From: Rubrivivax sp.
GTDB lineage: Bacteria > Pseudomonadota > Gammaproteobacteria > Burkholderiales > Burkholderiaceae_C
Assembly: GCA_027484825.1 (NCBI GenBank)
Contig: JAIXSE010000022.1
Location: forward strand, 1-64,000
DNA: 64,000 nucleotides
Reading direction: 5' to 3'
Part shown: piece after piece, positions 32,680 through 39,673 of the stretch
How the letters are laid out: each line of letters begins with the position of its first letter
Numbering within the stretch: the stretch's first letter is position 1
Notes under the pieces: model-generated
Databases searched by the model: none
Told to the model about the DNA's origin: nothing
Seen by the model: the letters and a program-made list of their open reading frames with translations, nothing else
Program-made: the position numbers and the translations under genes

Positions 32680-34167
32680 ATGAGCTCATGCCACGCCGCC
32701 ATTGAACGGGCCCAGGCCGAAAGCGCCGCCACGCGGGAGACGCTGGCGCGTTATGCGGCGGACTATCCGACGGCCGGCAACGGCCCGCATGACCAGCCGC
32801 AGAGCATGTGCCCGGCTTTCGGGTCGCTGCGGGTGGGACTGCGGATGCGGCGCACCGCCACCATCCTCAGCGGCTCCGCCTGCTGCGTCTACGGACTGAC
32901 TTTCACCTCCCATTTCTACGGCGCCAAGCGCAGCGTCGGTTATGTGCCGTTCAACAGCGAAAGCCTGGTGACCGGCAAGCTCTTCGAGGACATCCGCGAA
33001 GCGGTCCATGCCCAGGCGGATCCGGCGCTTTTGGATGCGCTGGTCGTCATCAACCTGTGTGTGCCGACGGCCAGCGGCGTACCGCTGCAACTGCTGCCCA
33101 AGGTGATCAACGGCGTGCGCATCATCGGCATCGATGTGCCCGGCTTCGGCGTGCCGACCCATGCGGAAGCGAAGGACGTGCTGGCCGGCGCGATGCTGCA
33201 GCGGGCCCGCAGTGAAGCCGAGGCGGGGCCGGTCTCCGCGCCGCGCGGCTGGCGTGAACAGGGGCTGGATGAGGCCCGCACGGTGAGCCTGCTGGGCGAG
33301 CTGTTTCCGGCCGATCCGATGGTGATCGGCGCCTTGCTGGCGCCGCTGGGCCTGAAGGTCGGACCCACGGTGCCGACGCGGGAATGGCGGGAGCTGTATG
33401 CGGCCCTGGATTGCAGCGTCGTCGCTGCGACGCATCCGTTCTACACCGCCTGTGTGCGGGAGCTGAAGGCGGCGGGACGTCCGGTCGTCGGCTCCGCACC
33501 GGTGGGCGTGGACGGGACGGCCGCCTGGTTGCGCGCCATCGGTGAAGCGGCGGAAGTGCCTTCGTCGCAGGTGGAAGCGGCCATCGCGGCGGTGCTGCCG
33601 TCCATCCAGGCGGCTCTGGCCCGCTCCCCGACCACCGCCCGTGTGACGGTGAGCGGCTATGAAGGCTCTGAACTGCTGGTGGCCCGGCTGCTGATCGAGA
33701 GCGGTGCCACCGTGCCGTATGTGGGCACGGCCTGCCCCCACACGCCCTGGTCCGAACCGGACCGTGTCTGGCTGGAAGCCCATGGCTGCGAGGTGCAATA
33801 CCGCGCCACCCTCCAGCAGGACCTGGGCGCCGTGCAACGCCATCGCCCGCAACTGGCCATCGGCACCACGCCGCTGGTGCAGGCCTGCAAGGAGCGGGGG
33901 CTGCCGGCGCTCTACTTCACCAATCTGATTTCCGCCCGACCCTTGATGGGCGCAGCCGGCGCAGGGTCGCTGGCCCAGGTGATCAATGCCGCCATCAGCA
34001 ACCAGTCCCGCTTCGACGCGATGCGCGACTTCTTCGGCGATGTCGGCACCGGCGATCAGGCCGGCATCTGGTCCGAGACCCCGGTGCTGCATCCGGGCTT
34101 CCGGGAAGACACCCGGCGCCAGGTCATCAAGGTGATGAAGCGTCGCCAATCGGAGCAGATGCTGTGA
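32680..34167 (+). CDS. bchY: Chlorophyllide reductase subunit Y
   Basis: [54 protein letters not shown]. Confidence 0.96.
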
Positions 34168-35648
34168 GCTTCGTCCTCGACCACGACCGGGCCGGCGGCT
34201 ATTGGGGCGCCGTGTATGTCTTCACCGCCATCAAGGGCCTGCAGGTCGTGATCGACGGGCCGGTCGGCTGCGAGAACCTGCCGGTGACCTCGGTGCTGCA
34301 CTACACCGATGCCTTGCCGCCGCATGAGCTGCCCATCGTCGTGACCGGACTGGCCGAGGAACAGCTGGGCCGCGAGGGGACCGAAGGCAGCATGCGACGC
34401 GCCCATGCCGCGCTCGACCCGGACCTGCCCAGCGTGGTGGTGACTGGCTCGATCGCCGAGATGATCGGCGGCGGCGTCACGCCCGAGGGCACGACCATCG
34501 CCCGCTTCCTGCCCCGCACCATCGACGAGGACCAGTGGCAATGCGCCAACCGGGCGATGTACTGGTTGTGGTCCGAGCACGGCCTTCGCCAGGTGCCGGC
34601 CCGCACACCCTTCGAGCAGCGTCCCGCCGGCGAGAAGCCCCGGGTCAATCTGATCGGGCCCTGCTACGGACAGTTCAACAGCGCCAGTGACCTGCATGAG
34701 ATCCGCCGCCTGGTGGAGGGCATCGGCGCCGAGGTCAACATGAGCTTCCCGCTGGGCAGCCATCTGGCCGATGTGCCGCAGCTGGCCCAGGCGGATGTCA
34801 ACGTCTGCCTCTACCGGGAATTCGGCCAGTTGCTGTGCGAGACGCTGGACCGGCCCTGGCTGCAGGCCCCCATCGGCCTGCACAGCACCACCGCCTTCCT
34901 GCGGGAGCTGGGCCGGTTGCTGCATCTGGATCCCGAGCCCTTCATCGAGCGCGAGAAGCACACCACCATCAAGCCGCTGTGGGACCTGTGGCGCTCCGTG
35001 ACACAGGACTTCTTTGCCACCGCCAGCTTCGGCATCGTGGCCAGCGAGACCTACACCCGCGGCGTGCGCCACTTCCTGGAAGACGAGCTGGGCTTGCCCT
35101 GCCAGTTCGCTGTCGCCCGCAAGCCGGGCGAGAAGACCAACAACGCGCAGGTGCGGGCGCTTGTGCATCAAAAGCCGCCGCTGGTGCTCTACGGCAGCTT
35201 CAATGAACGCATGTACCTGGCCGAGGCCGCCAGCACCGGACCGATGAAGCCGGCCTTCATTCCCGCATCGTTCCCCGGTGCCATCGTGCGCCGCGCCACC
35301 GGCACGCCCTTCATGGGTTATGCGGGGGCGACCTATCTGGTGCAGGAGTTCTGCAACGCGCTGTTTGATGCGCTGTTCCACATCCTGCCGCTGGGCACGG
35401 ACCTGGACCGGGTGGACCCGACCCCGGCGCGGGCGCTGGCCTCGCTGCCCTGGAGCGACGCCGCACGTGAACTGCTGGAAGAGCTGCTGGAAGCCCAGCC
35501 GCTGCTGGTGCGCATCTCCGCGGCCAAGCGCCTGCGAGACCAGGCGGAAGCCGCGGCCCGCGCCCGTCAGGGCGCCACGGTGGACGTCGAGGACCTGGAG
35601 CGTCAGGCCCGTCAGCTGGCCGCTGCCGCGCTGGGAGCGGTGGCATGA
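34164..35648 (+). CDS. bchZ: Chlorophyllide reductase subunit Z
   Basis: [58 protein letters not shown]. Confidence 0.97.
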
Positions 35649-35740
35649 ACACAAGGCTTGCCGTGGGCATGTGGCCCTGGAAGTCCCTGCCGCGCGGGAG
35701 CTGCGCGGTGCAGGGCCGCAAGGCCCATTCTCAGGAGTGA
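35645..35740 (+). CDS. Candidate 31-aa leader ORF between bchZ and pufB
   Basis: ATG overlaps bchZ stop (ATGA); [31 protein letters not shown]; stop lies within the AGGAGTGA ribosome-binding region of pufB. Confidence 0.35.
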
Positions 35741-35745
35741 TCGAT

Positions 35746-35895
35746 ATGGCTGATAACAGATCAGGCTCGTTATCCGGGCTGACTGACACAGAAGCCCGGG
35801 AGTTCCACGGCATCTTCATGACCAGCTTCATTGGCTTCACGGCGATTGCCGTGGTGGCCCATGTGCTGGTGTGGATGTGGCGTCCGTGGCTTTGA
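35746..35895 (+). CDS. pufB: Light-harvesting 1 beta polypeptide
   Basis: [49 protein letters not shown]; conserved FH and AH...WRPW. Confidence 0.97.
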
Positions 35896-35932: not shown

Positions 35933-36157
35933 ATGGCGCAGATCACGAACCTTCCAGCAGGCAGCCCTGCCGCGCAGGACACCAGGACCGACGAGGCCCT
36001 GTTCCTCGTGAGTTTCATCTTCGTGCTTCTGATCGCGCTTGCCGCGCAGTTGCTGTTTCTGGACTGGCGCACGTGGTTGCCTGGGGCGGAGTGTGAGAAA
36101 TCACTGATCAAGGGTGTGCGGGCGGGGGTCTACACCTTCATGTCCCACCTCAATTAG
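35933..36157 (+). CDS. LH1-beta-like single-TM protein of unknown function inserted between pufB and pufA
   Basis: [74 protein letters not shown]; good RBS (AGAGGTCC); SFI...A..AxLL..WR.WL aligns with PufB. Confidence 0.85.
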
Positions 36158-36168
36158 GAGATCCAAGC

Positions 36169-36354
36169 ATGTGGAAGATCTGGTTGTTATTCGACCCGCG
36201 CCGAGCGCTGGTCGCGCTGTTCGCCTTCTTGTTCGTTCTGGCGCTGGTGATTCACTTCATCCTGCTCAGCACCAACAAGTACAACTGGCTCGACGGTCCG
36301 AACACCAAGCCGGTGGTTCAGAACTCGGCGATGCCGGCGCCGGCGCCGAAGTAG
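36169..36354 (+). CDS. pufA: Light-harvesting 1 alpha polypeptide
   Basis: [44 protein letters not shown]. Confidence 0.97.
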
Positions 36355-36379
36355 TCCTCGCGTCTGCGTCATTGACGGT

Positions 36380-36435
36380 GCGGGGCTGGCGCCTCGCATC
36401 GTCCCGCGACTGCACAGGGCCCCGCATGCCGCGGG
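36380..36435 (+). promoter_or_regulatory. Hairpin-rich pufA-pufL intercistronic region (possible mRNA stabilising/processing element)
   Basis: CCCGC-atgcc-GCGGG (36421-36435) and GCGGG...CCCGC (36380-36407) between pufA stop and pufL start. Confidence 0.45.
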
Positions 36436-36460: not shown

Positions 36461-37285
36461 ATGGCCATGCTGAACTTCGAGAGGAAGTACCGCGTCCGCG
36501 GCGGAACCCTGCTGGGAGGCGATCTGTTCGACTTCTGGGTGGGGCCGTTCTACGTCGGCTTCTTCGGTGTCACCACGATGTTCTTTACCCTCGTGGGCAC
36601 GTTGCTGATCGTCTGGGGTGCGTCCCAGGGCGGCACCTGGAACCTCTGGCGGATCAGCATCGCGCCGCCCGATCTCAAATACGGGCTGGGCATGGCGCCC
36701 CTGATGGAAGGCGGGCTCTGGCAGCTCATCACCGTCTGCGCCATCGGAGCCTTTGTCTCGTGGGCGCTTCGGGAAGTGGAGATCTGCCGAAAACTGGGTA
36801 TGGGCTATCACGTGCCCTTCGCCTTTGCGGTGGCCATCTTTGCCTATGTGACGCTGGTGGTGATCCGCCCGGTGCTCATGGGCGCCTGGGGACACGGCTT
36901 CCCCTACGGCATCATCAGTCACCTGGACTGGGTGTCCAACACCGGCTACCAGTACCTGCACTTCCACTACAACCCGGCGCACATGCTGGCGGTGAGCTTC
37001 TTCTTCGCCACCACCTTCGCGCTGAGTCTGCACGGAGCCCTGATCCTGTCGGCGACCAATCCGGCGCCTGGCGAAGTGGTCAAGACCGCCGAGCACGAGA
37101 ACACCTTCTTCCGCGATGCCATCGGCTATTCGATCGGCACGCTGGGCATCCACCGTCTGGGCCTGTTCCTGGCCCTGTCGGCCGGTTTCTGGAGCGCCGT
37201 CTGTATCGTCATCAGCGGACCGTTCTGGACCCGCGGCTGGCCGGAATGGTGGAGCTGGTGGCTCAACCTTCCGATCTGGAAGTGA
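36461..37285 (+). CDS. pufL: Photosynthetic reaction centre L subunit
   Basis: [61 protein letters not shown]. Confidence 0.97.
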
Positions 37286-37377: not shown

Positions 37378-38358
37378 ATGCCTGAATATCAGAACCTCTT
37401 CACCAGCGTGCAGGTGGCCGCGCCGTCGTATCCCGGCGTGCCGCTGGGGCGGGACGAGTATCAGCGCAGCGGCGGCGCCACGCATGTCCACTGGCTGGGC
37501 CGGCTGGGAGATGCCCAGCTCGGGCCCATCTACCTGGGTTGGCTGGGGCTGTGTTCGCTGATCTGCGGCTTCATCGCCATCGAGATCATCGGGCTCAACA
37601 TGCTGGCGTCGGTGAACTGGAATCCGATCCAGTTCGTGCGCCAACTGCCCTGGCTGGCGCTGGAGCCGCCACCGCCGGCCTACGGGCTGCATCTGCCGCC
37701 GCTCAACCAGGGCGGATGGTGGCTGCTGGCGGGCTTGTTCCTCACCACCTCCATCCTGCTGTGGTGGGTGCGCATGTACCGCCGTGCCCGCAAGCTGGGC
37801 ATGGGCACCCATGTGGCCTGGGCCTTTGCCGCGGCCATCTGGCTCTACCTGGTGCTGGGCTTCATCCGCCCGGTGCTGATGGGCAGCTTTGGCGAGGCCG
37901 TGCCCTTCGGGATCTTTCCGCATCTGGACTGGACGGCGGCCTTTTCGCTCCGATATGGCAACCTGTTCTACAACCCGTTCCACATGCTGAGCATCGTGTT
38001 CCTGTATGGCAGCACCCTGCTGTTTGCGATGCACGGGGCGACCATCCTGGCGGTGAGCCGCTTCGGTGGTGAGCGGGAGATCGAGCAGATCACCGACCGC
38101 GGCACCGCCAGCGAGCGTGCCGCGCTGTTCTGGCGCTGGACCATGGGCTTCAACGCCACCATGGAGTCCATCCACCGCTGGGCCTGGTGGTTTGCGGTGC
38201 TGTGCCCGCTGACCGGTGGCATCGGCATCCTGCTGACCGGCACCGTGGTGGACAACTGGTATTTGTGGGGCGTGAAACACGGCATTGCGCCGATGTATCC
38301 GGCCGTGTTCCCGCCGGTGGTGGACCCGTCGCTGATCGTGCCCGGGAGCCAGCCATGA
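37378..38358 (+). CDS. pufM: Photosynthetic reaction centre M subunit
   Basis: [75 protein letters not shown]. Confidence 0.97.
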
Positions 38359-38531
38359 GCGCGGCGCGATGGACGCGTGTGGCGGTCCGGCTGTGGTCGG
38401 CGCTGTTTGAGGCGCTATTTGAGGCGGGAAGGACCGTCGCCCTGCAGCACGGCATTCCCATCGCGGGGACGCAGACCCTGATCAACAGCCCGGTCAACAG
38501 CCCTGTCCTTGGGGCGGGGGAGACAGCATGA
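38355..38531 (+). CDS. Candidate 58-aa micro-ORF coupling pufM and pufC
   Basis: ATGA overlap with both pufM stop and pufC start; [58 protein letters not shown]. Confidence 0.5.
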
Positions 38532-39673
38532 CGCAGACTCAGACACGCCAGCGGGCGCCCCTGCGGGTGCTGATGCTGGCCTCGACCCTGGTGCTCGGGC
38601 TGCTGGCCGGCTGCGAACGGCCGCCGGTGGAGACGGTGCAGCGCGGCTACCGCGGCACCGGCATGGAGCAGGTCTACAACCCGCGCCTGCTGGCCGAGCA
38701 GGCGGCGGCCAACGAGGCGCCGGCACCGCTGGAGCCCGCGTCGCCGGACGGGCCCAAGGCCGGCCAGATCTACCAGAACGTGAAGGTGCTCGGCCACCTC
38801 AGCGTCGGGGAATTCAACCGCACCATGGCGGCGATGACCGCCTGGGTCGCGCCCAAGCAGGGCTGCGTGCACTGCCACAACGTGCAGAACTTCGCCGATG
38901 ACTCGCTCTATCCGAAGCTGGTGGCGCGGCGCATGCTGCAGATGACGCAGACCATCAACAGCGACTGGCAGCGGCACGTCGGCAAGACCGGCGTCACCTG
39001 CTACACCTGCCACCGGGGCGAGCCGGTTCCGAAGGAAGTGTGGTTCCAGCCGCTGACCCCCAGCGGGGCCAACACCTTCTCCGGCAACAAGGCCGGACAG
39101 AATGCGCCGGCTGCGAGCGTCGGGCTCGCGTCCCTGCCCAATGACCCGTTCACACCGTTCCTGCTGGAGAGCGAGAACATCCGTGTCGCCGGCACCCAGG
39201 CGCTACCGGCCGGCAATCGCCAGTCCATCAAGCAGGCGGAGTGGACCTATGGGCTGATGATGCACATGTCCAAGTCGCTGGGGGTGAACTGCACGCAGTG
39301 CCACAACACCCGGTCGCTGGGGTCGTGGGACAACAGCTCCCCGCCGCGGGTCACCGCCTGGCATGGCATCCGCATGGTGCGGTCCTTGAATAACGACTAC
39401 CTGGTCCCGCTCACCCAGACCTTCCCGGCCAACCGGCTGGGACCGATGGGGGATGTGGCCAAGGTCAACTGCGCGACCTGCCACCAAGGCGCGCACAAGC
39501 CGCTGTATGGCGCGGAAATGGCCAAGTTCCATCCGGAGCTGCTGACCAAGTCCCCGCTGGCGCCGGCAGCGGCGTCGAGCCCGGCGTCGGATCCGTCGAT
39601 GGTGACGGCGGAGGATCTGCAGATGCTGCGGGCCCTGACGCCCGAGGGCGCCAAGCCAGGCGCGCCCAGCTGA
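38528..39673 (+). CDS. pufC: Reaction-centre-bound tetrahaem cytochrome c subunit
   Basis: Lipobox-like VLGLLAGCERPP; four CxxCH motifs CVHCH, CYTCH, CTQCH, CATCH. Confidence 0.97.
   Translation: MTQTQTRQRAPLRVLMLASTLVLGLLAGCERPPVETVQRGYRGTGMEQVYNPRLLAEQAAANEAPAPLEPASPDGPKAGQIYQNVKVLGHLSVGEFNRTMAAMTAWVAPKQGCVHCHNVQNFADDSLYPKLVARRMLQMTQTINSDWQRHVGKTGVTCYTCHRGEPVPKEVWFQPLTPSGANTFSGNKAGQNAPAASVGLASLPNDPFTPFLLESENIRVAGTQALPAGNRQSIKQAEWTYGLMMHMSKSLGVNCTQCHNTRSLGSWDNSSPPRVTAWHGIRMVRSLNNDYLVPLTQTFPANRLGPMGDVAKVNCATCHQGAHKPLYGAEMAKFHPELLTKSPLAPAAASSPASDPSMVTAEDLQMLRALTPEGAKPGAPS

Follow-up and report, generated by a model that had tools for sequence, protein, structure and literature searches.

Small chains encoded in puf operons

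ORF74 of Roseateles depolymerans (RD2015_RS05155) is a named gene that was published without a function (PMC10037100). In that species, one transcript of 1 kb, the major one from puf, covers pufB, ORF74 and pufA; ORF74 ranks in the top three loci for change under carbon starvation, and when the SP70 sigma factor is deleted it falls to 2.34% (PMC10037100). In Rubrivivax gelatinosus, pufA is preceded in the puf operon by an ORF2; the accessible text of the 2025 paper that describes it sets ORF2 against PufA (alpha) and PufA2 and notes the missing alpha His, and that text makes no comparison with beta (PMC12817894). ORF2 is presumably ORF74, since the two share a position, and the Rubrivivax loci L099, L100 and L107 have an ORF74 member between pufB and pufA. 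The first-pass annotation of the DNA studied here had allowed for prior characterization under an existing name. The gene is indeed already named, as ORF74 and ORF2, but no function has been published for it, and the open-licence literature yielded no comparison of ORF74/ORF2 with beta or PufQ.

Several described chains resemble ORF74 in part. Long-form LH1 beta (chains of 7xxf, 8z81 and 9m8m) shares with it a single transmembrane (TM) helix, the WRxW-(L/I)P motif, a C-terminal extension and a place in the puf operon. LH1 beta in general (PufB; PF00556, LHC) carries an Mg-ligating His, an FH His and an SGLT-EA-EFH motif, whereas ORF74 lacks all three. PufQ (PF05398) and the PufQ-position ORFs, which lie between bchZ and pufB, match ORF74 in size (about 70-80 aa), in their one TM helix, in a variable N-terminus with a conserved C-terminus, and in the absence of the ligand His from nearly all members. 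Unlike both of these, ORF74 has its gene between pufB and pufA, has retained WRxWLPGAE and is more closely related to beta.

PufX, protein-W and LH1-gamma are likewise small single-TM chains, and theirs is an accessory role in RC-LH1. PufX is encoded after pufM, whereas ORF74 lies between pufB and pufA. LH1 gamma in Rhodopila and Blastochloris is a very short chain encoded away from pufLMC (PMC9640540); the gamma-like chain of Rhodopila has 22 residues, the opposite orientation and a gene far from puf, in contrast to the 74 aa of ORF74 inside the operon. When the ORF74 profile is run against the PDB, its matches include no PufX, protein-W or gamma chain. A separate observation concerns the RC-LH1 of Halorhodospira halochloris, in which chain 4 of 8k5o, present in a single copy and 105 aa long, carries the annotation of an antenna alpha/beta domain protein; its matches have E 2.2e-10 with long beta and E 0.001 with the ORF74 profile. 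This chain is possibly a precedent for a beta-like chain present once per complex.

Gene layout, spread and selection

The window, the whole 64,000-nucleotide stretch of Rubrivivax sp. DNA analysed here, contains a puf operon with the following features.

34164..35648, + strand: bchZ, identified by gene order and because it matches loci annotated as bchZ
35746..35895, + strand: pufB, short-form LH1 beta, 49 aa, WRPWL end, both His kept (NCBIfam equivalog pufB_517_ASD)
35933..36157, + strand: ORF74/ORF2, 74 aa, assigned from its sequence as a His-less LH1-beta paralogue (ATG 35933, TAG 36157)
Parts of ORF74: variable N-terminus, about 1-20; TM helix, about 21-43; WRTWLPGAE, 45-53; C-terminal helix, about 58-73
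36169..36354, + strand: pufA, LH1 alpha, 61 aa (NCBIfam equivalog pufA_517_ASD)
36374..36403, + strand: hairpin directly 3' of pufA, GACGGTGCGGGGC...GCCTCGCATCGTC (whole-spacer z -2.09)
36461..37285, + strand: pufL, downstream of pufA
37378..38358, + strand: pufM, downstream of pufL
38528..39673, + strand: pufC, reaction-centre cytochrome (CxxCH motifs, place after pufM)

The 74 codons of ORF74 lie between pufB and pufA, and AGAGAGG 5' of its ATG is a plausible ribosome-binding site. Coordinates and motif bear out the first-pass description of a 74-aa ORF with its own ribosome-binding site separating the two antenna genes, and the C-terminal extension and the ending quoted for it also hold. 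Helix bounds are taken from low-confidence AlphaFold2 models (mean pLDDT 64 and 67.4), with which a Foldseek search returned no match; therefore they give no fold support for ORF74 either way. Neither Pfam (at E 10) nor NCBIfam has a family that matches the window ORF, while LHC (PF00556) is reached at E <= 1 by 8 of 37 ORF74 members, with a best E of 4.4e-6. Where a single member matched DMT_YdcZ or DUF2567 in Pfam, the match was set aside as noise, such matches being scattered and at or under the cut-off.

The gap between bchZ and pufB measures only 97 bases, so the usual pufQ place holds no PufQ-like gene in the window. This spacer (35649-35745, + strand) forms strong hairpins, CCGCGCGGGAGCTGCGCGG and GGCCGCAAGGCC (GNRA-type loop), which have counterparts in relatives and may be a leader element in the puf mRNA. 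At the other end, relatives have a strong stem at the same place after pufA, and the post-pufA hairpin suggests that pufB, ORF74 and pufA form one stabilized mRNA segment. Further downstream, a 58-aa ORF (38355-38531, + strand) between pufM and pufC overlaps the pufM stop (ATGA) and the pufC start, in the place held by ORF77 in R. depolymerans and, elsewhere, by pufX. ORFs that overlap likewise occur in the Roseateles/Sphaerotilus group with poorly conserved sequences, and other relatives mostly lack them.

Genome searches show that ORF74 is a regular part of Burkholderiales puf operons. Across 301 genomes of the family, strong matches (E <= 3e-10, plus G046 at 3.8e-8) occur in 39 of 48 phototrophs, recognized by pufL/pufM, and in none of 253 non-phototrophs. 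A relative is encoded at 324 places in a scan of 85,462 species genomes, and the best 80 of the 324 come almost entirely from Burkholderiales or betaproteobacterial records, apart from a few odd MAG labels. The gene is present in many families across the order Burkholderiales; what a class-wide search picked up outside the order were beta chains and ORFs at the PufQ position, plus one unrelated ORF. Conservation in related puf operons, which the first-pass annotation had proposed to look for, proved wide: ORF74 occupies the pufB-pufA interval in every one of the 108 distinct loci parsed. The R. depolymerans copy (L050) is 92% identical to that of the window, which marks the genome of the window as Roseateles-like.

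Median dN/dS is 0.135 over 96 related pairs (0.1 < dS < 1.2), and by this measure ORF74 is under purifying selection. In the alignment, for which the starts of L001, L008, L012 and L020 were set by hand, mean column entropy is 0.47 bits in WRxWLPGAE, 1.24 in the extension, 1.84 in the TM part and 3.05 in the N-terminus. ORF74 is a real gene, not a chance ORF. That it might be a functionless relic or a spurious frame, as the lack of a Pfam or NCBIfam match to the window ORF could be taken to mean, is highly improbable given 108 distinct loci at one place, a dN/dS of about 0.14, a conserved C-terminus and regulated transcription in R. depolymerans (PMC10037100).

Descent from LH1 beta

Sequence and profile comparisons join ORF74 to the beta chains. 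The window ORF aligns with the PufB of the same operon over 23 residues without a gap and with 11 identities, and a phmmer search of the PDB ranks the LH1 beta chain 8z81_B first (E 1.2e-6). A 37-member ORF74 profile likewise recovers LH1 beta chains from the PDB, with a best E of 1.6e-16. In hhalign, ORF74 matches long-form beta over 73-74 columns, its whole length (prob 99.5, E 7.2e-23), and the profile comparison with short beta gives E 7.3e-12, against E 0.07-0.4 for reversed-profile controls. An alpha-chain origin was rejected, as that comparison reaches only E 0.003 with reversed controls at 0.07-0.08. ORF74 forms one clade (SH-aLRT 95) and the PufQ proteins another (94) in a tree of 74 columns, most forks of which are unresolved. 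By these comparisons, ORF74 and the LH1 beta polypeptide are paralogues, with homology along the full length of ORF74.

The window ORF has Gln at the Mg-ligand His position of PufB and Glu at the FH His position, while both His are invariant in short PufB (112 of 112). Gln takes the ligand position in 81 of 107 ORF74 proteins, Thr, Ser, Lys or Glu in 17 and His in 1; some members have Ala, Leu, Gly or Cys. The single member with His there (VGHLL) is encoded at 787-1008 of L034 (G093). The N-terminal beta motif SGLT-EA-EFH is gone, whereas WRxW-LPGAE and the conserved C-terminal segment, otherwise a long-form beta feature, are kept. Beta homology, the lost His and the retained extension together suggest that ORF74 arose by duplication. 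On all these points the first-pass annotation reads well: a recount gives its 11 identities in 23 ungapped positions, the two replaced His are Gln and Glu as it said, the LH1-beta-like nature it saw is clear in the profile comparisons, and its idea of a duplicated beta is supported by profile, tree and residue statistics, which also show changed sequence constraints.

Loss of the ligand His need not mean loss of pigment. The magnesium of chlorophyll can be ligated by Gln, and ORF74 could be a variant beta that binds one bacteriochlorophyll through Gln39, giving odd alpha-ORF74 units with a shifted absorption. A polar residue at the ligand position in most members would fit, as would Trp48, which takes the place of the second Trp of the beta WRPW and is kept in 102 of 107. 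Yet the members with Ala, Leu, Gly or Cys at that position, and the disappearance of both the second conserved His and the SGLT-EA-EFH motif, make such binding improbable, and ORF74 is probably not a light harvester.

The length of the neighbouring PufB adds to the picture. PufB measures 47-50 aa in 108 of 108 ORF74 loci, and 11 Burkholderiales loci with a long PufB (76-78 aa) all lack ORF74, as if the extension had been shifted from PufB onto ORF74. Some of these long PufB, such as that of L151 with DGVKAAVNSFMPYVFMA, have a C-terminal extension that resembles the one of ORF74. An ORF74 member at 909-1212 of L152 (G351) ends in GVRKAANSVIPLMFM, intermediate between VYTFMSHL of ORF74 and the MPYVFMA or IPFAFM of long-beta/PufQ-like chains. 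The mutual exclusion of long PufB and ORF74 seems to be a new pattern and would fit a duplication whose products came to share the tasks; no significance is claimed for it, because the 10 changes of the ORF74 label on the PufL tree drop to one on supported branches.

The preferred reading, held at just under an even chance, is that ORF74 is a histidine-less beta paralogue serving as an accessory chain of LH1 or RC-LH1. After duplication of a long-form pufB, the tasks would have been shared out between the two copies: pigment binding would have stayed with PufB, which gave up the extension, whereas ORF74 would have retained the extension but not the pigment site. Made from the common pufB-ORF74-pufA mRNA, ORF74 would insert like beta, with its N-terminus in the cytoplasm and its C-terminus in the periplasm, and would lie along the edge of the beta ring or on its outer face; from there its WRxWLPGAE region and C-terminal helix may touch the periplasmic side of LH1 or of the reaction centre. 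Both the insertion and the accessory role are proposed because of descent, the shared mRNA and the conservation in WRxWLPGAE and the C-terminal segment. The loss of the N-terminal beta motif speaks against this reading. The first-pass annotation had suggested a ring-gap, capping or assembly subunit, a role that ORF74 may have.

PufQ-position ORFs and the role of ORF74

The ORF74 profile also matches ORFs at the pufQ place, between bchZ and pufB, in other lineages. A PufQ-type profile, free of ORF74 and beta sequences, was built from these PufQ-position ORFs together with PufQ proteins annotated on plasmids, and in a phylum search the strong matches read out lie upstream of a pufB. For the comparisons, the PufQ-position ORFs first found via the ORF74 profile were removed. 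This reduced set matches ORF74 with prob 96.8 and E 2.2e-10 (reversed control 0.18), long beta with E 2.0e-11, short beta with 2.2e-6 and Rhodobacterales PufQ with 1.2e-6, while the values are 0.33 with alpha and 0.07-0.39 with reversed controls. That TM segments resemble one another by chance was rejected as the source of these matches, given that alpha and reversed controls reach only 0.07-0.4 and that the ORF74 match survives the removal. Rhodobacterales PufQ alone matches ORF74 weakly (prob 43.6, E 2.4e-4) and in profile comparison does not match beta (E 0.14-0.16), so the link between beta and PufQ runs via the PufQ-position ORFs. From sequence, ORF74 and LH1 beta both appear homologous to these ORFs, a relationship that seems to be new.

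Because of this kinship, a non-structural role is possible for ORF74. In Burkholderiales it may be the PufQ counterpart, a membrane helper derived from beta and lacking the His, and would deliver or steer (bacterio)chlorophyll precursors or restrain ferrochelatase in photosystem assembly; this reading is tentative. Besides the homology of the reduced set, the genome-wide best match of the PufQ-type profile falls at the puf operon (ORF74, beta or upstream ORF) in 16 of 18 Burkholderiales genomes. No parsed locus has both ORF74 and an upstream PufQ-like ORF, and four Burkholderiales loci with short PufB that lack ORF74 (L048, L154, L159 and L161) have the upstream ORF. PufQ is also described as having a divergent N-terminus and a conserved C-terminus (PMC5725709). 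Such a counterpart would account for the mutual exclusion and the common conservation layout.

It does not account for the nearness of ORF74 to long beta rather than to the PufQ-position ORFs (scores 110 vs 57), nor for the 11 long-PufB loci, which, like Novosphingobium, have neither ORF74 nor an upstream ORF; because of these, a PufQ-like function is not always needed or lies elsewhere. The position downstream of pufB and the weak homology to Rhodobacterales PufQ itself also speak against it, as does the window's own genome (G000), where the best match of the PufQ-type profile is ORF74 but weak (E 0.05, next place 0.07). G000 was also searched for another PufQ outside this operon, and that idea was rejected, as PF05398 gives no match over the cut-off and its best E, 0.2, lies off the puf operon. 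The accessory chain and the PufQ counterpart are not wholly exclusive, because PufQ is itself tied to LH assembly in earlier work cited in PMC5725709.

Outside the Burkholderiales question, a PufQ-like ORF annotated as hypothetical lies between bchZ and pufB on a Thiodictyon syntrophicum plasmid (L184, 720-944), and more occupy this place at L138/L168, L139/L169, L183 and L194-L204. The Pfam PufQ model does not recognize the PufQ-like ORFs between bchZ and pufB that were tested; according to a 2022 paper, Chromatiaceae lack pufQ (PMC8877833).

For PufQ, the resemblance reported so far is to reaction-centre helices (Bauer and Marrs 1988, as cited in PMC5725709). Homology of the PufQ-position ORFs to LH1 beta gives PufQ a possible origin, and these ORFs widen the known spread of PufQ-like genes. 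It also touches topology: the PufQ C-terminus is predicted to be cytoplasmic, and would be periplasmic if PufQ inserted like beta. LH1 beta, PufQ and ORF74 could conceivably form one superfamily in which antenna chains lost their ligand at least twice and became helpers in pigment supply or assembly, with the ORF74 of Burkholderiales, derived from long-form beta, replacing PufQ; this wider view is doubtful enough to be offered only as a suggestion. An un-annotated puf-operon gene of most Burkholderiales phototrophs, Rubrivivax gelatinosus included, thereby gains a descent and two testable functions, and antenna proteins seem, from these sequences, to have given rise to helpers that bind no pigment.
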